Source: Acidithiobacillus sulfuriphilus (GTDB lineage: Bacteria; Pseudomonadota; Gammaproteobacteria; Acidithiobacillales; Acidithiobacillaceae). Taken from it: 44,401 nt of DNA. Below the pieces are notes generated by a model. It searched no databases. It was not told where the DNA came from and was given only the letters and a program-made list of their open reading frames with translations. Position numbers and translations under genes: made by a program. Each line of letters opens with the position of its first letter. The first letter of the stretch is position 1. This document shows, one piece after another, positions 34,621 to 44,232 of this stretch. The stretch spans positions 1-44,401 of the forward strand of contig NZ_RIZI01000186.1 of the NCBI RefSeq assembly GCF_003721225.1, written 5' to 3'.

Positions 34621-34649
34621 TTGACAAGATACCGCTTGGTCGGTATCTT
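34621..34649 (+). promoter_or_regulatory. Promoter of the TetR gene with overlapping perfect operator
   Basis: TTGACA (34621-34626), a 17-base spacer and TATCTT (34644-34649) form a good promoter. Superimposed is a perfect inverted repeat of 9-base arms, AAGATACCG and CGGTATCTT, around CTTGGT (34626-34649). It covers the spacer and -10, so bound regulator would block polymerase. The core ATACCGCTTGGTCGGTAT is a typical TetR-family operator. A transcript would start near 34656, only about 3 bases before the ATG. Confidence 0.85.
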
Positions 34650-34658
34650 TATACTATC

Positions 34659-35276
34659 ATGATACCCGAATCCGTGAAAAAGACACGCAATCCCGAGCAA
34701 ACTCGGGCCGACCTCCTGGCCGCCGCCTATGGCGAGGTCCTGGAGTGCGGTTTCCAGGCGGCCAGCCTGGAGCGCATCCTTGCCAAGACTTCCGTGAGCA
34801 AAGGAGCCCTCTACCATCACTTCGGCACCAAGCATGAACTGGGCCTGGCGGTGGTAGAGGAAGTCGTCGGGCCGCAACTTGCCGAGCGCTGGTTTGAACC
34901 CCTGCGCCGCGATGGCGATCCCATTGCCGCCCTGACAGGGATCCTCGAAGAAAAAATCCAGTCCGCCTCCGAAGCCATCATCCGTTTCGGCTGCCCTCTC
35001 AACAACCTCATTCAGGAAATGAGCCCCTTGGACGAGCGCTTCCGCAGCGGCCTCCAAAACATCCTCGACGCCTGGATCAAGGCCATGGCCGATGCCCTGG
35101 CGGCAGGGCAAGAGGCGGGCAAGGTGCGCGGCGACATTCCCCCTCAGGAAGCGGCCCTTTTCATCGTGGCGGCCATCGAAGGCTGCGTGGGCTTGGGTAA
35201 AAACGCCCAGTCCGTAGATGCCTATCAGCGCTGCCTGCGGCAATTGCAACTCTATGTGCAGTCCCTGGCTGCCTGA
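34659..35276 (+). CDS. TetR-family transcriptional regulator
   Basis: A 205-residue repressor. The N-terminal helix-turn-helix (about 12-58) includes TRADLLAAAYGEVLE, ILAKTSVSKGALYHHFGTK and is classical TetR. The C-terminal ligand domain contains GCPLNNLIQEMSP, so Cys112 lies in the expected sensing core; Cys30 is the other early cysteine. TetR relatives that control flavin enzymes (NemR) sense electrophiles through a cysteine, so Cys112 is a candidate sensor by inference. The start ATG lies just after the promoter and operator with no Shine-Dalgarno sequence, suggesting a leaderless message. Downstream genes encode a dienelactone hydrolase and an Old Yellow Enzyme. Confidence 0.93.
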   Translation: MIPESVKKTRNPEQTRADLLAAAYGEVLECGFQAASLERILAKTSVSKGALYHHFGTKHELGLAVVEEVVGPQLAERWFEPLRRDGDPIAALTGILEEKIQSASEAIIRFGCPLNNLIQEMSPLDERFRSGLQNILDAWIKAMADALAAGQEAGKVRGDIPPQEAALFIVAAIEGCVGLGKNAQSVDAYQRCLRQLQLYVQSLAA

Positions 35277-35326
35277 TTGCAGCCTTGCCCCTAGCGCCCA
35301 ATTCATGGCCGGGGGTTCATTTTGAT

Positions 35327-35339
35327 GACCTTCAAGGTC
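35327..35339. promoter_or_regulatory. Palindrome GACCTTCAAGGTC before the dienelactone hydrolase gene
   Basis: A perfect 13-base dyad lies in the 107-base gap between the TetR gene and the hydrolase gene. TTGATG overlaps its left edge, but no good -10 follows. MerR-type regulators bind comparable ACCTT/AAGGT dyads. It differs from the TetR operator, so a separate regulator or chance is possible. Confidence 0.3.
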
Positions 35340-35383
35340 GCCCTCTAGCCCGTTGAACAAGCACCCTTTCCAGGAGAGCAAAA

Positions 35384-36112
35384 ATGAGCGAGATCCACTC
35401 ACAATGGCTGAACCTGCACGCTGACTTGCGCGCCTGGTACGCCCGGCCGGCGGCCGCCGGCCCCCATCCCGCCGTCATCGTCTTCATCGAGGCCTTCGGC
35501 GTCAATCTCCACTTTCAGGAAGTGGCCGAGCGTCTGGCGCGGGCGGGGTACTGCGCCATCGTTCCCGATATCTACCATGGCAAGATCTATGAATACACCG
35601 ATTTCCAAGCCGCCATCGCCCACCTGAAATCCCTGGATGACCAGCAGGTCATGGTCGAGGCGGCCCTCGCCCTGGATGCCCTGGGCGAGCGCGCGGAAGT
35701 CCGGAAAGATGCCATAGGCGCCTTGGGCTTTTGCATGGGCGGGCGCTATGCCTTCATGGCCAACGCCATCCATGCCCGGAGGCTCTCCGCCACGGCGGCC
35801 TTCTATGGCGGCGGGATTGCGCCGGAAAAAGATGCGGTGGGGCGTGAACCCCTGCTGCATCTGGCTCCGCAGATGCAGGCCCCGCTATTGCTCCTCTATG
35901 GCGCCAAGGACAACTCCATCCAGCCCGATGAGCACGGCCGCATCGCCAGCGCCCTGAGCGCCGCCGACAAGCGTTATACCCTGACGGTATTCCCCGCTGC
36001 CGGCCATGGCTTCTTCAGCGACCGGCGTGACAGCTATCACGAACTCGCGGCCAAGGAGGGCTGGCGCCTGACCCTGGATCACCTTGCCCAATATCTGGAT
36101 GGGCAGGCATGA
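35384..36112 (+). CDS. Dienelactone hydrolase family protein
   Basis: A 242-residue alpha/beta hydrolase. The catalytic triad is Cys117 in GFCMGGRYAF, Asp176 in YGAKDNSI and His208 in AGHGFF, the Cys-His-Asp arrangement of dienelactone hydrolases. Glu36 in VFIEAFGVN matches the residue that activates the nucleophile. AGGAGA is well placed before the ATG. Substrates in this family include dienelactone and other reactive lactones or esters; the true substrate is unknown. Its stop overlaps the Old Yellow Enzyme start by 4 bases, so the two are made together, probably for detoxifying unsaturated electrophiles under TetR control. Confidence 0.92.
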   Translation: MSEIHSQWLNLHADLRAWYARPAAAGPHPAVIVFIEAFGVNLHFQEVAERLARAGYCAIVPDIYHGKIYEYTDFQAAIAHLKSLDDQQVMVEAALALDALGERAEVRKDAIGALGFCMGGRYAFMANAIHARRLSATAAFYGGGIAPEKDAVGREPLLHLAPQMQAPLLLLYGAKDNSIQPDEHGRIASALSAADKRYTLTVFPAAGHGFFSDRRDSYHELAAKEGWRLTLDHLAQYLDGQA

Positions 36113-37191
36113 GCCCTGCGAGCCATCTGTTCAGCCCCTGGCAGCAGCGCAGCCTGCGCATCCGCAATCGCATCTGCGCCTCTCCCATGTGTCAGTATTC
36201 CACCCCCGACGGGGTGGCCCGCGACTGGCACATGGTCCATCTGGGCAGCCGCGCCGTGGGCGGCGCCGGACTGGTCATGGTCGAGGCCAGCGGGATCAGC
36301 CCCGAAGGGCGCATTTCGCCCCAAGACCTGGGCATCTGGAACGACAGCCAGGCCGAGGCCCTGCGCCCCATCGCAGCCTTTATGCGTGGGCAGGGCACCA
36401 CTCCCGCCATTCAGATCGCCCATGCCGGGCGCAAGGCGTCCACCGCGGCGCCTTTTCACGGCGGCCGACCCATTGCGCCCAAGGACGGCGGCTGGCAACC
36501 CGTCGCCCCCAGCGCCATCGCCTTCAGCGCCGAACACACGCTACCTAGGGCCATGGAAGCGGCGGATTTCCAGCAAATCCTGGAGGACTTCCAGGCCGCG
36601 GCCCGGCGCGCCCTGGCAGCCGGTTTCCAGGTCCTGGAGATCCACATGGCCCATGGCTACCTCCTGCATAGCTTCCTCTCCCCCATCAGCAACCAGCGCG
36701 AAGATCGCTATGGCGGTAGCCTGGAGAACCGCATGCGCTTTCCCCTGGAGGTGGCCGCGGCCCTACGCACCATCTGGCCCGATGATCTGCCCTTATGGGT
36801 ACGGATTTCCGCCAGCGACTGGGTGGAAGGTGGTTGGGACATCGAGCAATCCATTACCCTGAGCACCGCCCTGAAAAAACTGGGTGTGGATGCCATTGAC
36901 TGCTCCAGCGGCGGCATGACCCCCGATGCCAGGATTCCTGCGGCACCCGGTTTTCAGACCGCTTTTGCCGCCGCCATCCGCCATACCGTGGGCATCCCCA
37001 CCGTGGCCGTCGGTCTCATCACCGCAGCCGCCCAGGCCGAGCATATCCTGGTCACGGAACAGGCCGATGCCGTCAGCCTTGCCCGCGAGATGCTGCGCGA
37101 CCCCTACTGGCCCTTGCATGCCGCTCTGGCTCTGGGCGATGATCTGGCCTGGCCGCAGCAATATGATCGGGCCAAACCGCATCACCGTTAG
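36109..37191 (+). CDS. Old Yellow Enzyme (NADH:flavin oxidoreductase, YqjM/XenA type)
   Basis: A 360-residue FMN-dependent TIM barrel reducing activated C=C bonds such as enones and quinones. MCQYS (27-31) with Cys28 is the signature of the YqjM/XenA subclass, where the Cys tunes the flavin. QIAHAGRKAS and IHMAHGYLLHSFLSPISNQREDRYGGSLENR-type sequence mark the FMN and substrate sites. The start ATG overlaps the hydrolase stop. Linkage of an Old Yellow Enzyme with a TetR regulator parallels nemR-nemA of E. coli, pointing to electrophile defence. The EamA gene follows 34 bases downstream. Confidence 0.95.
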   Translation: MSPASHLFSPWQQRSLRIRNRICASPMCQYSTPDGVARDWHMVHLGSRAVGGAGLVMVEASGISPEGRISPQDLGIWNDSQAEALRPIAAFMRGQGTTPAIQIAHAGRKASTAAPFHGGRPIAPKDGGWQPVAPSAIAFSAEHTLPRAMEAADFQQILEDFQAAARRALAAGFQVLEIHMAHGYLLHSFLSPISNQREDRYGGSLENRMRFPLEVAAALRTIWPDDLPLWVRISASDWVEGGWDIEQSITLSTALKKLGVDAIDCSSGGMTPDARIPAAPGFQTAFAAAIRHTVGIPTVAVGLITAAAQAEHILVTEQADAVSLAREMLRDPYWPLHAALALGDDLAWPQQYDRAKPHHR

Positions 37192-37225
37192 CAGTTTCCG
37201 TCCTCCAGCGCAGGAATCGCGCAGC

Positions 37226-38128
37226 ATGTCCAAGACCCCGACCCTGCCCATGGCCGCCCTCGCTTTGCTCTCCCTGATCTGGGGATATAATTGGGTCGTC
37301 ATGAAGGTCGCCCTGGTCGACTGCCCGCCGCTACTCTTCGCGGCGCTGCGGGTGCTGGTCGGGGTGGCCGTGCTCTTTCCTTTGCTGATCCTGCTCAAAC
37401 GCCCCCTGGCCATGCCGCCTTGGCGCTTTATCCTGCCCCTCGGCTTGCTGCAAACCACCGGATTTGTGGGTTTCACCCTCTGGGCCCTGGAATATGGCGG
37501 GGCGGGCAAGACCGCCATCCTCGTCTACATGATGCCCATCTGGCTGATTCTTTTTGCCTGGCCCGTGTTGAATGAACGGGTGCATGGACTGCAATGGCCC
37601 GCCTTGGCCTTGGCCTTGCTCGGCCTGCTCTGCATCTTGGAACCCTGGCACTATCATGGCCAACTGCTGGGGTCGCTGCTGGCCTTGCTGGCCGGCATGT
37701 CCTGGGCCGCTTCGGCCCTCTGGCAAAAGCGCCACGCGCCGCACCGCTTGGATTTGCTCAATGTCACCACCTGGCAAATGGCCTTTGGCGGCCTGGCCTT
37801 GACCGTCCTGGCGCTGCTCATGGACCCCTTGACGATTCATTGGACCCCGACCTTCGTCGGCGCCCTGATCTATAACGCCGTCCCCGGCAACGCCTTGGCC
37901 TGGCTCCTCTGGACCTACGCGCTGCACAAGCTGCCCTCGGGCATCGCCGGCATGGGCACCCTGGCCGCCCCCCTCATCGGCGTACTCGCGGCCTGGGCGC
38001 AACTGGGGGAGCGGCCGGGCGACTGGGAGGGCATTGGCATGGCCGCCATTTTTTTCGCCCTGGCCCTGGTGAGCTGGCAGCACCTGCGGCCCAGGGAGGA
38101 TTTACCCTTACCCGCCGCACAGGAATAG
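37226..38128 (+). CDS. EamA/DMT-family transporter
   Basis: A 300-residue membrane protein with ten predicted helices in two EamA repeats. SLIWGYNWVVMKVAL opens the first half, and LLGSLLALLAGMSWAASALWQK the second. LGERPGDWEGIGMAAI near the end is typical of the RhaT/EamA group. The substrate is unknown; relatives export metabolites, amino acids or toxic compounds. The frame is open well upstream, but the ATG at 37226 with AGGAA before it gives the family N-terminus. It lies 34 bases after the Old Yellow Enzyme gene and may export a product of the same stress response. Confidence 0.9.
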   Translation: MSKTPTLPMAALALLSLIWGYNWVVMKVALVDCPPLLFAALRVLVGVAVLFPLLILLKRPLAMPPWRFILPLGLLQTTGFVGFTLWALEYGGAGKTAILVYMMPIWLILFAWPVLNERVHGLQWPALALALLGLLCILEPWHYHGQLLGSLLALLAGMSWAASALWQKRHAPHRLDLLNVTTWQMAFGGLALTVLALLMDPLTIHWTPTFVGALIYNAVPGNALAWLLWTYALHKLPSGIAGMGTLAAPLIGVLAAWAQLGERPGDWEGIGMAAIFFALALVSWQHLRPREDLPLPAAQE

Positions 38129-38151
38129 GGGCGGCCGCCGGGCAGGGGCCG

Positions 38152-38796
38152 TCAGTGACCCGATGAGCCCAAGGCAGGGCTTGCCGTGGGGGAGGTATCC
38201 AGCAGACGTTGCAACTGCGCCGCATTGATTCGCCGCAAGGGCTTGCCATCCACTGGGGAGGCAGGACTGCGCCGGTCTTCATCCAGACCAAAAATCACCA
38301 CCCGCAACTCGCAGCCCCCATAATGCAGGCGCAAAACCGGATACTCCCGCGGCGTCTGCTCGCCAAAATGCAGCATTTGCCGGCCTTCTTCATAGCTCGC
38401 TCCCTGATCCAGGAGGAAAAACAGCACGCTTTCGGGGGTATCGGCAAAAACATGGAGGACAATGGCGGAATGGCCGGTAGCCGTTCCTTCCAGGACCGGT
38501 CCGCTCAAACGCGGAGCAAAGTCCGCCAGCCAGTGCATGGCCGCCAGAGCGGTCCGCCGCAGGTGTTGCAGTTCGGCGCTATGGGCATCCCCATGGAAGA
38601 GCGCCAGACGCGACTGCAGCTCGGCATGAATCTCGGCGTTGCTCGGCCAGAGCTGCTGCGCATCCCCCGCGATGCCCAGGCGCCGCGCCGCCTTCTCCTT
38701 CGCTGCCCGAAAATCCGCCACCCCCTCTTCGGCCATGATCCGGGCCGATTCCACGACCAAAAGACGGCGCAAACGGGGCTGTTGTGACTTGACCAT
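38152..38796 (-). CDS. Conserved hypothetical protein
   Basis: A 214-residue soluble protein that I recognise only as a conserved proteobacterial family, without known function. The N-terminal half is helical with a run VVESARIMAEEGVADFRAAKEKAARRLG-type sequence. A central GPVLEGTATGHSAIVLHVFADTPESV looks like a nucleotidyltransferase-type beta sheet, and the C-terminus has SPVDGKPLRRINAAQLQRLL. The ATG at 38796 is preferred because GAGG sits six bases upstream; an ATG at 38814 is also in frame. It is convergent with the EamA gene and its start faces the tRNA-Leu gene. No signal peptide or membrane segment is visible. Confidence 0.85.
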   Translation of the reverse strand: MVKSQQPRLRRLLVVESARIMAEEGVADFRAAKEKAARRLGIAGDAQQLWPSNAEIHAELQSRLALFHGDAHSAELQHLRRTALAAMHWLADFAPRLSGPVLEGTATGHSAIVLHVFADTPESVLFFLLDQGASYEEGRQMLHFGEQTPREYPVLRLHYGGCELRVVIFGLDEDRRSPASPVDGKPLRRINAAQLQRLLDTSPTASPALGSSGH

Positions 38797-38861
38797 GGCA
38801 AACCTCATACCCATAAAGGTGATTGTCCGTTAGATCCATAAACCTTTAGAATAAGGCATAG

Positions 38862-38946
38862 GCGAGAGTGGCGGAATTGGTAGACGCACTGGATTTAGGT
38901 TCCAGCGGTTTCGGCCGTGGGGGTTCGAGTCCCCCCTTTCGCACCA
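38862..38946 (+). tRNA. tRNA-Leu (anticodon TAG)
   Basis: An 85-base class II tRNA. The acceptor stem GCGAGAG pairs with CTTTCGC, with one G-T pair. The anticodon stem CTGGA/TCCAG encloses TTTAGGT with anticodon TAG, and the long variable arm CGGTTTCGGCCG and encoded CCA are clear. tRNA-Leu 3' ends are common integration sites, relevant to the gene debris directly downstream. Confidence 0.97.
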
Positions 38947-39018
38947 AACACTCACAAAATATCCCATGGCTCCCGGTGCTTTTTCGTGGCGATAGCTTAG
39001 GAAAATATGGAGCAACCC

Positions 39019-39239
39019 ATGGCAAGCATTGTCCTCCGTAGGGATAAAGACGGCAACATCACGAGCTGGATCGCCCGGCTCCGCTGCAGGTGGCGGGACT
39101 GATTGGAGCGCACCCGCCTCGACGCGGCCATGCACCATGCCCAGGGCCACAAGCGGAATGCCGCCCACGAACTCGGCTCGGGGCCCGCAACACCCTCACG
39201 CGCAAGCGCAACAAGGAATTGGGCATGGAGGCGGGAAGT
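39019..39239 (+). pseudogene. Decayed gene remnant: ntrC-like C-terminal DNA-binding domain
   Basis: Reading forward from 39103, LERTRLDAAMHHAQGHKRNAAHELG is a clear match to the Fis-type helix-turn-helix end of NtrC. After a frameshift near 39180, RNTLTRKRNKELGME completes that C-terminus. The receiver and AAA+ domains are missing. Upstream in the same frame, and separated by a TGA at 39100-39102, is a 27-codon open stretch from ATG 39019 (MASIVLRRDKDGN). It loosely resembles phage-integrase N-termini, but that is weak. The remnant sits between tRNA-Leu and the porin stop. The fragment cannot encode a working regulator. Confidence 0.6.
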
Positions 39240-39293
39240 GGCGATGCCGAAGATGCCACTTCGCCGCCTACCGCAGCGGCGCGGCGGGAAGCG

Positions 39294-40616
39294 TCAGAAG
39301 GCGTACTGCAGCATTACCCGGTTGTCCACCAAGGTCCCCAGAGGGACATTGTTGATGTTGTGGAAACCGTGGTCGATGGCCAGCCGGTCACGGAGGGTTA
39401 AACCCTTGAACATGCCGGTCAGCGCATACCCTACGCTCAGATAATTGGCGCTTACATTCTGCACATAGGGCGCCGTGTGGTACCAGCTATACGAATACTT
39501 CACCCGCCATTGGGGGGTGGGCGTGAAGATGAAACCGATTTTCCAGGCAGAACCCGGCGCCGAGGCCGACACCAGGCCGTAGTTCATGATGCTGGTGAAC
39601 AGGGGATCGGCATTGTAGGGCTGGGTGTAGGGGGAGATGAATCCGCCGTTGTAGAGATCGCGCTGCCCGCCCACCGAGAAGGGGGTGCGGCTCGGGACCT
39701 CGTTGTAAGCGGCAAAGATCTCGCCATAATGGCTGCTTAGGCCGCCTTGAATGCCGTAGACGGTGGCATCGATGGGCCCGGCATAGTCGGCGCCGTCGCC
39801 CCATTGCCGGCCAAACTGCAGGTCCATAAAAGGCGTTACGGGGCCAAGCGCAATCCCATAATGCGCCGTTCCCCAGAAAAAATCGGCTAAATTGTAGAAT
39901 TGGTAGAGCCATGCCTGACCGCTGAGGTCTGGGATACCGTAGGGCTTGGCGGAGAGCTTCACGCCGAAGGCCAGGGCGCCGTTGTCCTCTCCGGGAATCT
40001 GGCGATAGAGCAGGCTTTCCGGTGACAGGTTGAGGAGATTGCTACGGCTGTAATCCGGGGCGGTGCGATTTTTGTAACGAAAGGAACGCAGACCCTCGAT
40101 CTCCACCCCGGCCACCGGGCGTAGCGCGCCATAAACGGCCTGGAAGGTGTTGGGGATCATGAAGGCGTCGGCCGGCCACATCCAAGGTGTATCCAAGAGT
40201 TGGTCGCCCGCCCGCAGCGTGGCCCAATGATTTTCATATTGCAGATAGGCTTGGCCGAGAACGTTCAGGGAATGTCCCGTGCCCATGAGGAGCGGGTCCA
40301 GATGCGGATAGGCGGGTGCGCCGCTGTGGTCGTTCACCCCCAGATCGTTGGCCGTGTAAAAAGCAATGCCGGCGCTGAGCCCATAGAGGGGTGCCGTCTG
40401 GACCTTGAGCATGCCGCCCAGGGAATAGGCATAGGTATTGGGCATGGTGGAGCTACCATAGTCCTGGGTGTAATAGTAATTGCGGATATCGCCAGAAACT
40501 TTGCTCTGCATGAGCCAATCCTTGATAGTCATGGTTGCTGCGTGAACAGGGACATTGACAGCCAGCAGGCCCATCATCACTCCGAGCATGCCCAGGGGGA
40601 GTATTCTTTTTTGCAT
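39294..40616 (-). CDS. OprD-like outer-membrane porin
   Basis: A 440-residue outer-membrane protein with a signal peptide (MQKRILPLGMLGVMMGLLAV, cleavage after VHA). The rest is built from alternating aromatic beta strands and ends in LQYAF with a C-terminal Phe, the mark of a barrel inserted by BamA. Length and features such as VSGDIRNYYYTQDY near the N-terminus and SVGYALTGMFKGLTLRDRLA near the end suit the OprD family of substrate-specific porins. The substrate is not evident. A strong AGGAGA site precedes the ATG. It lies downstream of the binding-protein gene on the same strand, but a terminator separates them. Confidence 0.83.
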   Translation of the reverse strand: MQKRILPLGMLGVMMGLLAVNVPVHAATMTIKDWLMQSKVSGDIRNYYYTQDYGSSTMPNTYAYSLGGMLKVQTAPLYGLSAGIAFYTANDLGVNDHSGAPAYPHLDPLLMGTGHSLNVLGQAYLQYENHWATLRAGDQLLDTPWMWPADAFMIPNTFQAVYGALRPVAGVEIEGLRSFRYKNRTAPDYSRSNLLNLSPESLLYRQIPGEDNGALAFGVKLSAKPYGIPDLSGQAWLYQFYNLADFFWGTAHYGIALGPVTPFMDLQFGRQWGDGADYAGPIDATVYGIQGGLSSHYGEIFAAYNEVPSRTPFSVGGQRDLYNGGFISPYTQPYNADPLFTSIMNYGLVSASAPGSAWKIGFIFTPTPQWRVKYSYSWYHTAPYVQNVSANYLSVGYALTGMFKGLTLRDRLAIDHGFHNINNVPLGTLVDNRVMLQYAF

Positions 40617-40676
40617 AACGGTTCTCCTGATAACGGTTGGTATCGAAGTATTTTCTGTAATATTACGTAAGGCAGC

Positions 40677-40717
40677 AAAAGAGGTCCTTGATATGGCCTT
40701 GCCTCTTCAAGGACCTC
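40677..40717 (-). terminator. Rho-independent terminator after the binding-protein gene
   Basis: A perfect 11-bp stem, GAGGTCCTTGA (40681-40691) and TCAAGGACCTC (40707-40717), with a 15-base loop. On the minus strand it is followed by TTTT. It lies 11 bases beyond the stop of the binding-protein gene, so the porin must have its own promoter in the remaining 60 bases; a GTAATATTAC palindrome at 40657-40666 is there. Confidence 0.8.
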
Positions 40718-40728
40718 AGGGTTCCCTT

Positions 40729-41766
40729 TTAGGAGAGATCGCCTCCCTTGGGCGGGTTGTAGCCCGTCTCCCGGAACACGGCCTGGCCGGCCTTGCTGGT
40801 CATGAAGCGAATGAAGGCCTCCCCCAGTTTGGGGTGCGGGGCGTCTTTGGGCACGGCGGCATAGAACACCAGAGGCTGGGTGTGCAAGGTCTGGGTCTTG
40901 CCGTCCACCTGCATGGTGAAATGCACGGTGTCGTACCAGGCCTTGGCCATGGCGGGATTGCTCAGATTGATTTCATCCGGGAGGGGGATGGAAGGAAGGT
41001 GCAGGGATTTCACCGCGCTCTCATATCCGGAGGAGGCATCCATCTGTCCGCTCTTCAGGCGCGCCAGCAGCGAGGCCTCGGTGAAGATCTGCCCTTGGTT
41101 CTCCACGGGGCCGAGAATGCGCTGGACAAGCTCGGGCTGGTGGTAGTACTTCTGCGCCAGGAGAAAGGTAAAAATGATGTTCTGACCCTGGGGATCCGTC
41201 TGCGGGTCCGTGCGTCCGAACTGGATCCCGGGCTTCTCCAGCACCGTGTACCAGGGCAACTTGCCGGCGGCGGCGGCCGCAAAATCCTTGGCATAGCGGC
41301 TCTTGGGGCTATAGGCGATGACCATGGCGGTGCTGGCCACCGGTATCGCCTTGTTCACCATGCCGGCCTTTTCCAGCACCCGGATGGGGCCTGGTGTAAT
41401 GGAGATGAACACGTCCGTGCGCAGCTTCTTGGCCGCAATGAGGTGGGCGAGGCCATAGGCACCCTGCCCTTCTCCTTGATAGGTGACGTGATGGGCCTTG
41501 GCGAAGGCGGGGCCCAAGTGCAGGTCCATGACCGCTCCCATGGAGCCGGCATAGGCGACCTGGAGAGGGGTAGCGGCCACGGCCGTTCCCATACTCGCCA
41601 CCCACAGTACAGCGAGCAGGGCCATGGCAGGTTGGGCTTGCATGGGTGCAGGCCGATCCCAGGCCGCGCCTGGCGCCGGCGTGATGGCCGGATTCCTGGG
41701 GTGGGGATCCATCTGTATATTTCGTGACATATAACGATGTAGCAAAGCAGACCAATTGTTTTGCAT
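40729..41766 (-). CDS. Tungstate/molybdate-type periplasmic binding protein (WtpA/ModA-like)
   Basis: A solute-binding protein. YAGSMGAVMDLHLGPAF, TDVFISITPG, MVIAYSPKSRYAKDF and PGIQFGRTDPQTDPQGQN follow the WtpA/ModA pattern (AGSL, NxxxDP) for oxyanion binding. The signal peptide hydrophobic core is MALLAVLWVASMGTAVA, unusually far from the N-terminus, about 46 residues after the first ATG. Start choices are 41781, 41766 and 41712; 41766 is chosen because GGAGA sits at good spacing. No ABC permease or ATPase gene is nearby, so it is an orphan. It may serve a transporter elsewhere, or work with the adjacent porin. Oxyanion identity is inferred from family. Confidence 0.82.
   Translation of the reverse strand: MQNNWSALLHRYMSRNIQMDPHPRNPAITPAPGAAWDRPAPMQAQPAMALLAVLWVASMGTAVAATPLQVAYAGSMGAVMDLHLGPAFAKAHHVTYQGEGQGAYGLAHLIAAKKLRTDVFISITPGPIRVLEKAGMVNKAIPVASTAMVIAYSPKSRYAKDFAAAAAGKLPWYTVLEKPGIQFGRTDPQTDPQGQNIIFTFLLAQKYYHQPELVQRILGPVENQGQIFTEASLLARLKSGQMDASSGYESAVKSLHLPSIPLPDEINLSNPAMAKAWYDTVHFTMQVDGKTQTLHTQPLVFYAAVPKDAPHPKLGEAFIRFMTSKAGQAVFRETGYNPPKGGDLS
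41716..41754. repeat. 39-bp imperfect direct repeat, copy 1
   Basis: Starts TATAT and contains CGATGTAGCAAAGC (41735-41748) followed by ACC. It matches copy 2 with identical internal spacing: the 14-base core agrees at 13 positions. This copy lies inside the N-terminal coding region of the binding-protein gene if that starts at 41766. Confidence 0.7.
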
Positions 41767-41817
41767 GTTGGATATCTCCATTTTTTGATCAGGTCAAATA
41801 ACCATCGAGGGATACGG

Positions 41818-41856
41818 TATATATGATCGAATATCTCGATGTCGCAAAGCTTACCT
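41818..41856. repeat. 39-bp imperfect direct repeat, copy 2
   Basis: TATAT at 41818 and CGATGTCGCAAAGC at 41837-41850, exactly 102 bases from copy 1, in an AT-rich stretch upstream of the binding-protein start. The pair could be paired operator sites for a regulator, or remnants of a local duplication. Confidence 0.7.
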
Positions 41857-41937
41857 GCATACCAGAAATTTGGCTATACCACATCACAAAAGCAGTTATT
41901 ATGCCAAGGTGATGTGTCGGGCTTGCATCGGGACATG

Positions 41938-42006
41938 CGCCTGCCAAAGCAAGGCGAACGCCGATGCCGCTGATCCTGGATCCGCCAATTGGCAGCGGCG
42001 TTTTTT
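41938..42006 (+). terminator. Two hairpins ending in a rho-independent terminator within the Nramp leader
   Basis: The first hairpin, CGCCTGC-CAAA-GCAAGGCG (41938-41956), is followed by a terminator of TGCCGCTG (41965-41972) pairing with CAGCGGCG (41993-42000) and six T residues (42001-42006). The terminator arm GGCAG can also pair with CTGCC of the first hairpin, so alternative folds exist. It lies about 220 bases before the small ORF and 350 before the Nramp gene. It could end a small RNA or act as an attenuator or riboswitch. The rest of the 41782-42222 gap shows no other recognisable gene. Confidence 0.6.
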
Positions 42007-42222
42007 GTTCCGGCGGCCCGTGGGTTTGAACAGTTCGCCTGCCGAGCGCATAATTTCGCCAAAAATAACAACCGCGTGGGCCAATGTCGCGGAAAATCGC
42101 CCATGCCAAGTGCCGTTTCTGGGATGAGCCATCTCGTTAAATGGATCCCCCTGGGTCGCAACGCGCCACGGCAGGGGAAAGAGGACGTTCATCCCATTAC
42201 TTCCGCCGGATTCGAGGCCGCC

Positions 42223-42360
42223 ATGAGCGAAGACACAAAGCTCCAAAGTCCAACTCCGGAAGAGGTTCCGTGTACCCTGCACCGGGGCACAAAGGGCCGG
42301 AGCGCGAAAAAGGCCCGGCGCCGCGCCAGTCCATCCCATCACCGCGTTGATCGCCCATGA
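42223..42360 (+). CDS. Small basic ORF overlapping the Nramp start
   Basis: A 45-codon frame beginning MSEDTKLQSPTPEEV and ending in a strongly basic Arg/Lys/His-rich half with GRSAKKARRR. GAGG lies five bases before its ATG. The stop overlaps the Nramp ATG as ATGA, while the Nramp gene has no ribosome-binding site of its own, so coupled translation is likely. I do not recognise the peptide; it may be a leader peptide whose main role is coupling. Longer reading frames in this stretch have no better start. Confidence 0.45.
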   Translation: MSEDTKLQSPTPEEVPCTLHRGTKGRSAKKARRRASPSHHRVDRP

Positions 42361-43571
42361 GCAAAGCTAGGGACAGGCTGAAGGCGCTGGGACCAGGTGT
42401 CATCACGGGCGGCGCCGACGACGATCCGGCCGGGATCGTCACCTATTCCGTGGTGGGGGCCACCACCGGCTTCTCCCTGCTCTGGCTGATGCTGCTCGCC
42501 ACCCCCATGATGATCGCTGTGCAAAGCATGGCCTCGCGGATCTCCATCATTACCGAGAAGAGTCTGCCCGAGGTGATCACCGCCCATTTTTCCCGGCGGG
42601 TCACCATGTCCGTCATCACCCTCCTGGTGATCGCCAACGTCATCACCATCGGCGCGGACCTCTCGGGGATGGCGACGGTGCTGGGCATCCTGACGGGCAT
42701 TAAGCCGGGCCTGCTGCTGATTCCGGTGACCGCATTGATCGCCTATCTCGTGATCTTCAATGCCTATCGTGTGGTCAAGACGGCGCTGCTGAGCCTTACC
42801 TTGATCCTCTCCGTTTATATCGTCTCTGCCATCCTGATCCACCCGAATCTTGAGACGCTCCTCGTCAACACCTTCATCCCCCACATTAGCTTCGCGTCGG
42901 GCTATGTGGTCGCCGCCCTGGGGCTGCTGGGGACCACCATCTCCCCTTACATGCTGTTCTGGCAAGCGGCCGAGGAGCGCGAGGAAAAGCGTACGGTGGT
43001 ACAGGCAGCGGAGGCGGATTTCGACACCGTGGCCGGCATGCTGTATTCCAATGTGGTGTCTTATTTCATCATTGTCGCCGCTGCGGCGGTCCTCTACGGC
43101 AGCGGGGTGCCCATCCAGACCATGGAGGACGTGGCGCTGGCCCTGCAGCCCTTGGGGGGCAGGTACACCTTCGCCCTCTTCGGCGTCGGCGTGCTGGTCG
43201 CCGGTTTCCTAGCCATCCCGGTCCTGGCGGGCTCCAGCGCCTACGCCATCGCGGACACCTACGGCTGGCGCGAGGGGATGGATTACAAGGTCGCCGACGC
43301 CCGCGGCTTTTATGCGGTGTTCCTGGGTTCGCTGCTGGTCGGCGACCTCATCTACCTGTCCCCCCTCTCCACGGTGGATGCGCTTTATTACAGCCAGGTC
43401 CTGGACGGGATTTTGCTGCCCCTCCTGGTGGCATTGCTGCTGATCCTTGGCAACAACAAGGGGATCATGGGAAGCTATACCAATTCCTGGTTTAATAATC
43501 TCTTTGGCATATTCACCTTGTTGGTGAGCCTGGGCTTGTCCGCTATCCTTTTCTACCAGATGGTGTTTTGA
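42357..43571 (+). CDS. Nramp-family divalent metal transporter, non-canonical clade
   Basis: A 404-residue membrane protein with about eleven helices. It begins GPGVITGGADDDPAGIVTYS, the form found in a divergent Nramp group. The classical TM1 motif DPGN reads DPAG (23-26), and the TM6 motif with Met-Pro-His reads SPY (196-198) in GTTISPYMLFWQ. The loss of the metal-binding Asn and Met means selectivity for Mn2+ or Fe2+ cannot be assumed; related divergent Nramps carry Mg2+ or have unknown substrates. The start is fixed by the short family N-terminus. No ribosome-binding site precedes it, but the small ORF upstream overlaps it. A structured leader with a terminator lies further upstream. Confidence 0.9.
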   Translation: MSKARDRLKALGPGVITGGADDDPAGIVTYSVVGATTGFSLLWLMLLATPMMIAVQSMASRISIITEKSLPEVITAHFSRRVTMSVITLLVIANVITIGADLSGMATVLGILTGIKPGLLLIPVTALIAYLVIFNAYRVVKTALLSLTLILSVYIVSAILIHPNLETLLVNTFIPHISFASGYVVAALGLLGTTISPYMLFWQAAEEREEKRTVVQAAEADFDTVAGMLYSNVVSYFIIVAAAAVLYGSGVPIQTMEDVALALQPLGGRYTFALFGVGVLVAGFLAIPVLAGSSAYAIADTYGWREGMDYKVADARGFYAVFLGSLLVGDLIYLSPLSTVDALYYSQVLDGILLPLLVALLLILGNNKGIMGSYTNSWFNNLFGIFTLLVSLGLSAILFYQMVF

Positions 43572-43600
43572 TTGGGATTGCCGGGCGCTCCGAGGCGTTG

Positions 43601-43626
43601 GGGTTCCCCTTTTCCCTACGGAACCC
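43601..43626. terminator. Hairpin in the convergent gap between the Nramp and AhpD-like genes
   Basis: GGGTTCC (43601-43607) pairs perfectly with GGAACCC (43620-43626) around a 12-base loop. Neither strand has a T tract after it, so it is at best a weak bidirectional terminator. Confidence 0.3.
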
Positions 43627-43641
43627 GGCCAGCGGCGATGC

Positions 43642-44175
43642 TCAAAAATCCCGCTCTACCTTGAAGGCATTGATGATGACATCCGCCATCTGATTGCGGG
43701 CGCCATGCACCACGGCGTCCAGGACGTCGCTCTCCGTCCAGCCCTGGGCAAGCACCGCCTCCACATCTTCCCGCGTCAACGACGCCGGCGTCTGTACGGC
43801 CTTGAGCACCAGCAGGAGCATGGCCTTTTCCCCGTCGCTCAAGGGTGCCGCCCTTGGATCACGCTTGGTCGCCGCCACCGCTTCGGGGCTTTGGCCCAGG
43901 TGGTTGATCAGCATGGCTTCATTGAAGCCTACGCAGTAGTCACACTGGTTGGCCTGGGAAACCAGCATACGGATGGTGGCCAGCAACGCCGCTCCGAGGC
44001 GGGGATGGTGGCGGTAGTATTGGATGCCGTCCCACTGTTGGGCGAGGATCTCCGGGCTCAACCCGTAGACTTGCACGACGGCGGGAACCCGTCCGAAGGC
44101 ACCCTCAATTTCGTGGAACAGCTCGGCGGTCTTGCCGGATGCTTCCTCCGGAGCGATGGTTTGCAGGATGGTCAT
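43642..44175 (-). CDS. AhpD/carboxymuconolactone decarboxylase-like protein
   Basis: A 177-residue all-helical protein of the AhpD/CMD fold. QANQCDYCVGFNEAML holds the redox-type CxxC pair Cys78 and Cys81. The usual AhpD pattern is CxHCxxxH; here the positions of both histidines are Tyr and Asn85, so the classical proton relay is missing. It may be a peroxidase-related or thiol-disulfide protein of altered chemistry. GGAGG seven bases before the ATG at 44175 fixes the start. Its promoter contains a near copy of the TetR operator found at 34626-34649, linking it to the Old Yellow Enzyme cassette. It is convergent with the Nramp gene. Confidence 0.85.
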   Translation of the reverse strand: MTILQTIAPEEASGKTAELFHEIEGAFGRVPAVVQVYGLSPEILAQQWDGIQYYRHHPRLGAALLATIRMLVSQANQCDYCVGFNEAMLINHLGQSPEAVAATKRDPRAAPLSDGEKAMLLLVLKAVQTPASLTREDVEAVLAQGWTESDVLDAVVHGARNQMADVIINAFKVERDF

Positions 44176-44214
44176 AAAACGCCTCCAGTTGTGCGTAGGT
44201 GTGCGTGGTTTCAC

Positions 44215-44232
44215 ATACAGACTAGTCGGTAT
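44215..44232 (-). promoter_or_regulatory. TetR-type operator before the AhpD-like gene
   Basis: On the minus strand ATACCGACTAGTCTGTAT is palindromic in 8 of 9 base pairs and matches the operator of the TetR gene (ATACCGCTTGGTCGGTAT) at 14 of 18 positions, with conserved ATACCG and GTC/GTAT. It begins 40 bases before the start codon. TTGCCA lies just upstream as a possible -35, so binding would overlap the promoter. Confidence 0.7.

Follow-up and report, generated by a model that had tools for sequence, protein, structure and literature searches.

The DNA analysed here is a 44,401-nucleotide stretch of Acidithiobacillus sulfuriphilus (contig NZ_RIZI01000186.1), termed the window, which carries a TetR-family repressor gene (tetR) followed by genes for a dienelactone hydrolase (DLH), an Old Yellow Enzyme (OYE) and an EamA-family transporter, as well as a distant gene for an AhpD-like protein. 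It is likely that this one repressor, which is NemR-like as judged from its sequence, runs a dispersed thiol-stress regulon by the mechanism proposed below. The two operator-like sites in the window, site A in the tetR promoter and site B upstream of the AhpD-like gene, appear to belong to a set of about eight such switches in the 2.8 Mb genome (designated G000, with C numbers for its contigs). A first-pass annotation had placed the TetR, DLH, OYE, EamA and AhpD-like proteins in one regulon. This is supported by a non-circular scan of the genome, by conservation of the site ahead of AhpD-like genes and by the proximity of tetR and AhpD-like genes in distant bacteria. The evidence also supports a predicted regulon larger than that proposal, with 6 to 8 transcription units in G000.

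A check of the window sequence found both 18-mers where the first-pass annotation had placed them. Site A contains the 18-mer ATACCGCTTGGTCGGTAT at 34629–34646, at the core of a dyad of 24 bp that reads AAGATACCG-CTTGGT-CGGTATCTT and spans 34626–34649 (operator A). The dyad had been called perfect, which is accurate for its 9-bp arms but not for the 18-mer core, where 6 of 9 pairs match and the 6-bp spacer is non-palindromic. Operator A lies between the −35 and −10 elements of the tetR promoter, TTGACA-17-TATCTT (34621–34649, plus strand; 10/12 in a consensus scan), and is thus enclosed by it. Close TetR relatives (69–76% identical) are present at 17 loci (L029–L045), of which 13 are labelled Acidithiobacillus or Igneacidithiobacillus and four are from metagenome-assembled genomes labelled Proteobacteria (three) or Thiomonas (one). 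At all 17, TTGAC immediately precedes the operator, which starts 27–47 bp ahead of the tetR match. The order tetR–DLH–OYE is likewise found at every one of these loci (with a short OYE match in L033), and EamA follows in 11.

A profile built from tetR operators only, taken on both strands from 12 other loci with TetR proteins 70–76% identical (R2), avoids circularity and was run on G000. With the best 150 of 1014 first-look candidates scored, it gave six places at E≤10: the tetR operator (2e-5) and sites at genes for a second OYE (C22:6930, 0.005), a nitroreductase (C92:5940, 0.038), an aldo/keto reductase (C185:2098, 0.12), an outer-membrane efflux protein (C107:48371, 0.34) and the AhpD-like protein (C97:44215, 0.47). 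The gene downstream of each place encodes either the regulator itself or a protein of stress response, redox chemistry or efflux. A search with the pattern ATACCGNNTNGTCNGTAT, allowing at most two mismatches, found further sites in G000 on C22, C92, C32 and C185, behind which lie the second OYE gene, the nitroreductase gene, genes for a TauE-type permease and then a methyltransferase, and the aldo/keto reductase gene, respectively. A second profile (R1) was made from 54 sites, among them the six then known in G000, and the best 150 of 964 candidates were scored. It listed the TauE site, which is in R1 by construction, and added a site ahead of an iron-type alcohol dehydrogenase gene, at a distance of 150–220 bp that depends on the start chosen. 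The TauE and alcohol dehydrogenase sites are the weaker predictions. Several other matches were judged to be chance occurrences, including C15:6165, inside a 406-residue open reading frame (ORF), C87:5046, in coding sequence by eye, and several sites inside ORFs of relatives (for example G022:231303 and G010:C91). The wide pattern ATACCN8GGTAT with one mismatch was uninformative (57 matches versus 61 in the control).

Conservation was assessed in 29 genomes of the family, including G000, with 47 genomes of the class from outside the family as comparison. The first-pass annotation had named random genome-wide frequency of the motif as an outcome that would speak against the shared operator; in the family genomes the frequency is not random, as the pattern ATACCGNNNNGTCGGTAT with up to one mismatch gave 160 strand-hits versus 39 for the reversed control pattern. 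The corresponding numbers outside the family were 51 and 37. TetR orthologues at E<1e-80 are present in 25 of the 28 other family genomes, and those without such a match are G001 (71% complete), G019 (61% complete) and G025 (96% complete). An extra operator stands directly before the DLH gene in G004, G007, G011, G013 and G015, which all belong to one genus. Second copies of the TetR gene, each with its own operator, are found at L046 (an Acidithiobacillus sulfurivorans contig) and L235 (G016:C109); these match the query in two pieces and may be decayed.

The genes next to the remaining sites in the family are of the same kind. Outside G000, and with the usual tetR and AhpD-like sites excluded, 66 site regions were fetched (G009, G017 and part of G015 were left out), one of which, L235, precedes a second tetR copy. 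Taking the longest ORF that starts within 250 bp on each side gave 97 ORFs, with Pfam assignments to OYE (8), ChrR-type cupin (6), NAD_binding_2 of the glyoxylate/hydroxyisobutyrate reductase type (6), MFS (5), outer-membrane efflux (5), DLH (5), short-chain reductase (4), aldo/keto reductase (3) and nitroreductase (3). Detoxification or efflux families account for 45 of the 97, which a BLAST check confirmed as 45 different ORFs at 41 of the 66 sites. The control sites, 29 of the 37 distinct reversed-pattern sites examined as 3 kb loci versus mostly 5 kb for the real sites, gave 0 of 43 such ORFs. The Fisher p value of 1.5e-9 for this difference overstates independence, as related genomes repeat the same target. 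The other ORFs at real sites include three each for DapF, truncated globin and Rrf2, which the regulon does not account for. Two sequences recur in relatives, one ahead of an Rrf2 gene (ATACCTTGGGGTCGGTAT) and the other ahead of a truncated globin gene (ATACCGTAGAATCGGTAT); their half-sites fit poorly and they were not counted as targets. ATACCTTGGGGTCGGTAT stands ahead of an alike-starting ORF in three relatives (L186, L206 and L214) and is perhaps the Rrf2 regulator's own site, and ATACCGTAGAATCGGTAT or a close form of it lies about 150 bp ahead of an alike-starting ORF in four (L184, L195, L205 and L211). An operator-like site was also seen with a molybdopterin oxidoreductase gene on one side and a gene for MerT-like mercuric transport on the other (L180, G005:C245:4451).

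Operator B, ATACCGACTAGTCTGTAT, lies on the minus strand at 44215–44232, 40–57 bp upstream of the AhpD-like gene (43642–44175, minus strand), beginning 57 bp ahead of its ATG. As the first-pass annotation stated, it is a near copy of site A, identical at 14 of 18 positions and with 8 of 9 palindromic pairs. A degenerate pattern composed from sites A and B themselves gives 4 strand-hits in the window versus 0.08 expected in shuffles. Site B was also said to overlap the promoter of the AhpD-like gene. The upstream position holds, whereas a scan with the sigma-70 consensus was negative for a promoter at the site, and the overlap is graded plausible. The resemblance between the sites is judged to be real because relatives keep the site upstream of their AhpD-like genes. 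The family has 27 AhpD-like sequences at E≤1e-20, from 23 of the 29 genomes, and 23 of the 27 genes have an operator-like site (score of at least 12/16 within 150 bp upstream). The identical 18-mer precedes the window's own gene and those of all eight relatives with 64–94% protein identity, and weaker variants precede 14 of the 18 more distant genes. In 1000 shuffles of the upstream DNA, the score was never reached for 19 of the 23 sites and was reached two to five times for the other four. Mere relatedness was rejected as the source of these shared sites, since the flanks differ while the dyad persists in genes that are about 40% identical. Four AhpD-like genes are without a site, three of which (L165, L168 and L169) also encode no CxxC motif; L166 has a site and no CxxC in the aligned stretch. 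More distant TetR relatives (29–53% identical; 36 loci, L047–L082) give support to the regulatory tie that is independent of any operator, as at eight of them (L050, L052, L053, L055, L056, L057, L060 and L074) an AhpD-like gene (44–58% identical) lies 48–561 bp behind tetR. Among the neighbours of tetR at L047–L080, 14 of the 35 ORFs scanned (69 listed) are NmrA-like NAD(P)H-binding proteins, and the ORF of about 295 residues that adjoins tetR in many of L064–L080 is likely the NmrA-like one.

The AhpD-like protein (177 residues, motif CDYCVGFN) belongs to the CMD superfamily and matches AhpD-type structures in the PDB, although its scores are below the curated cut-offs for TIGR01926 (56.9 versus 81.8 bits) and Pfam CMD (20.1 versus 23 bits). 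AhpD itself has the motif CxxCxxxH. The description of the protein as a CxxC AhpD-like one is correct for the cysteines, but the histidine is not kept: CxxC is present in 31 of 35 AhpD-like sequences, and in all 31 Asn replaces the His. This suggests, from sequence, a chemistry other than peroxide reduction.

The repressor (34659–35276, plus strand; 205 residues) has TetR_N and TetR_C_13 domains. It exceeds the cut-offs for PF00440, PF16925 and PF21993 (TetR_N and an LmrA/YxaF-type C-terminal domain) and matches the NemR structure 4yze at 4.6e-8, while its score against the AcuR model NF051457 is below the curated cut-off (81.5 versus 247). Identity to Escherichia coli NemR is 42 of 199 aligned residues. 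Cys106 and Lys175 of NemR align with Cys112 and Lys181, both of which are present in 33 of 33 aligned proteins, E. coli NemR included, and invariant in the 32 sequences of an alignment without NemR. Cys176 (27/33) and Cys192 (29/33) are also common, and neither is found in NemR.

The sites and where they lie, their joint conservation with the repressor, the families of the targets and the conserved residues are observed; from these we infer the following course of binding, repression, induction and cysteine chemistry. A TetR homodimer would bind dyads of the ATACCGACnnGTCGGTAT type, including the one between the −35 and −10 elements of the tetR promoter, and block polymerase at these promoters, shutting off its own gene and the DLH–OYE–EamA genes behind it. 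At the distant copies it would silence the genes for the AhpD-like protein, the second OYE, the nitroreductase and the aldo/keto reductase, probably also those for the outer-membrane efflux protein and the TauE permease–methyltransferase pair, and possibly that for the iron-type alcohol dehydrogenase. A thiol-reactive compound would modify Cys112, perhaps bonding it to Lys181, and the repressor would leave the DNA. Reduction of the compound would then fall to OYE, the nitroreductase, the aldo/keto reductase and other enzymes, the hydrolase and the AhpD-like protein would act on products or disulfides, and the exporters would remove the rest. That the signal is a quinone or another electrophile is taken from the targets, which suggest reactive electrophiles, while the conserved residues would also accommodate oxidants or reactive sulfur.

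The regulon could be as described and respond in nature to oxidants or to reactive sulfur, whether hypochlorite-like, polysulfide or thiosulfinate-like, instead of quinones or carbonyl electrophiles, which we regard as possible but doubtful. The relatives are sulfur oxidisers and the possible targets include a TauE permease, both of which favour such a signal. So do the sensor residues, as of those in NemR the Cys106–Lys175 pair alone is kept; the positions of Cys21 and Cys116 are Val and Ser in the window's TetR and are Cys in NemR alone of the 33 sequences. A review ties hypochlorite sensing to the Cys106–Lys175 pair and the electrophile response to Cys21/Cys116 (PMC7464077), and AltR is described as using Cys100 for thiosulfinates and as unresponsive to N-ethylmaleimide and diamide (PMC13178969). 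However, most of the targets are carbonyl, alkene or nitro reductases, which fits electrophiles, and NmrA-like genes adjoin the distant TetR orthologues.

Two further explanations concern which sites belong to the repressor. G000 has two TetR_N proteins at E≤1e-3, and the second (C14:5707–6153, locus L236) is 28% identical over 158 residues to that of the window. The two might share sites, with the C14 protein binding a part of them and the AhpD-like gene possibly belonging to it. Just upstream of the C14 start is GACCGTCTGGTCGGTT, with a core like that of the studied operator and a resemblance also to the printed operator of PaaR from Burkholderia, whose core ACCGACCGGTCGGT indicates that the half-site is not private to one regulator (PMC2770484). 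Since ACCGACCGGTCGGT also serves this other TetR, a site cannot be assigned to its regulator from the core alone, and with the similar core at C14 this makes cross-talk between TetR repressors possible. The C14 sequence, however, has none of the ATA/TAT ends that site B keeps, it is absent at E≤10 among the best 150 candidates of both R1 and R2, and distant orthologues of the window's TetR adjoin AhpD-like genes; sharing between the two repressors is quite improbable. It is very improbable indeed that site B resembles an operator by chance, with the AhpD-like gene outside the control of the window's TetR. A 14/18 identity is weak by itself (about 0.35 expected per window and 22 per genome with uniform bases), site B has the weakest score of the six R2 places and no sigma-70-like promoter was found there, but the conserved 18-mer in the closer relatives, the variants in more distant ones and the shuffles argue for a real site.

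Besides the lost NemR cysteines, the core at C14 and the low rank of site B, several observations weigh against a single dispersed regulon. G025 keeps the OYE and efflux sites and has no strong TetR match, which may be a gap, and its AhpD-like gene is without a site. In G020 the tetR site is the sole match, and an AhpD-like gene was not found at 1e-20. The family genomes are related, so that counts among them are not independent, and weaker sites may be unseen in both profile searches. The TauE and alcohol dehydrogenase sites are absent from the R2 results and come from the ATACCGNNTNGTCNGTAT search and R1.

The genes behind tetR lie on the plus strand in the order DLH, OYE and EamA. The DLH family protein (35384–36112; 242 residues) matches PF01738 at 1.1e-48 and has a GFCMGG motif. 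The OYE (36109–37191; 360 residues; PF00724, 2.3e-68) is NamA/YqjM-like and scores 390.9 bits against the NamA model, under its cut-off of 431. The EamA-family transporter (37226–38128; 300 residues; PF00892, 5.8e-43) is the next gene behind the OYE, where no gloA is found. A tRNA-Leu gene is located at 38862–38946, between this cassette and the AhpD-like gene.

If the proposal is true, it defines, for this family of bioleaching acidophiles, a thiol-stress regulon that is open to test and complete with operator, regulator and targets, and it joins several orphan enzymes (DLH, a second OYE, the CxxCxxxN AhpD-like protein, ChrR-type cupins and glyoxylate-reductase-like proteins) in one function. 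It also raises the question of why the Cys–Lys pair is invariant in 33 sequences while the other sensor cysteines of NemR are lost. A bolder and rather unlikely extension is that throughout this TetR subgroup (Proteobacteria, Nitrospirae and Bacteroidota) the invariant pair forms a covalent switch of the sulfenamide or NOS type, that in sulfur- and iron-oxidising acidophiles it would read reactive sulfur or oxidant stress and drive at least six operons, and that the AhpD-like member (CxxCxxxN) would be a new type of thiol reductase and not a peroxidase.

Control of several dispersed detoxification genes by a single thiol switch is familiar from the quinone and electrophile regulons of Gram-positive bacteria (QsrR, YodB, MhqR and GbaA). 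The first three are of the MarR/DUF24 family and GbaA is a TetR, the operators are other than those found here, and the likeness is one of description only. The palindromic core is not new, as ACCGACCGGTCGGT has been published as the PaaR operator in Burkholderia cenocepacia, and the cores of the sites studied here resemble it, a comparison made by operator and not by protein. PaaR is TetR-type, and its core lies between −35 and −10 and at several separate clusters (PMC2770484, PMC9493321). However, PaaR is AcrR-like according to its authors, its effector is phenylacetyl-CoA according to a review, its targets are catabolic, and the printed operator is without the ATA/TAT ends. The targets in G000 are reductases, a hydrolase and transporters, not phenylacetate catabolic genes, and no paa-type family is among the 25 of 46 families listed for the 97 flanking ORFs. 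DitR of Stenotrophomonas maltophilia, like NemR and AltR, is the kind of switch proposed here, a cysteine-dependent TetR repressor released by a thiol oxidant that controls an exporter. It differs in using Cys92 and Cys127, in its reported 15.9% identity to NemR and in controlling one operon, mfsBC (PMC9342713).

AltR of the alt/TTG allicin-tolerance clusters in Pantoea and Pseudomonas is described as a NemR homologue (Pantoea) that represses itself through a dyad and relies on one key cysteine, Cys100. It is described as cluster-specific, and its operator is CAATCTAC-N6-GTAGATTG, whereas those found here read ATACCG...CGGTAT (PMC13178969). The first-pass annotation had regarded its combination of genes as undescribed. 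This does not hold for TetR, OYE and AhpD, since the Pseudomonas PfAR-1 islands hold tetR, ahpD, oye and sdr, so that only the DLH and the dispersed layout count as additions. The conserved PfAR-1 sets as listed (osmC, sdr, tetR, dsbA and trx; ahpD, oye, 4-ot, kefF and kefC), name no dienelactone hydrolase (PMC7119367). Searches of open-licence literature, judged mostly from titles and the starts of abstracts and, for one query, covering 20 of 192 papers, gave no DLH–OYE cassette under a TetR and no dispersed NemR-like regulon in Acidithiobacillaceae. Also among the closest known systems is E. coli nemRA-gloA, in which a TetR represses its own gene and the following OYE gene and is released by stress (PMC7464077, PMC3739934). 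By sequence, the repressor of the window likewise has an operator in its own promoter, an OYE gene downstream and the aligned Cys–Lys pair, but a DLH gene intervenes, the protein is distant from NemR, with neither Cys21 nor Cys116, and the cassette is without a glyoxalase. Moreover, NemR is described there for one operon, whereas the repressor of G000 is predicted to serve 6 to 8 scattered units, and this dispersed, family-wide regulon with its DLH–OYE cassette is apparently new.

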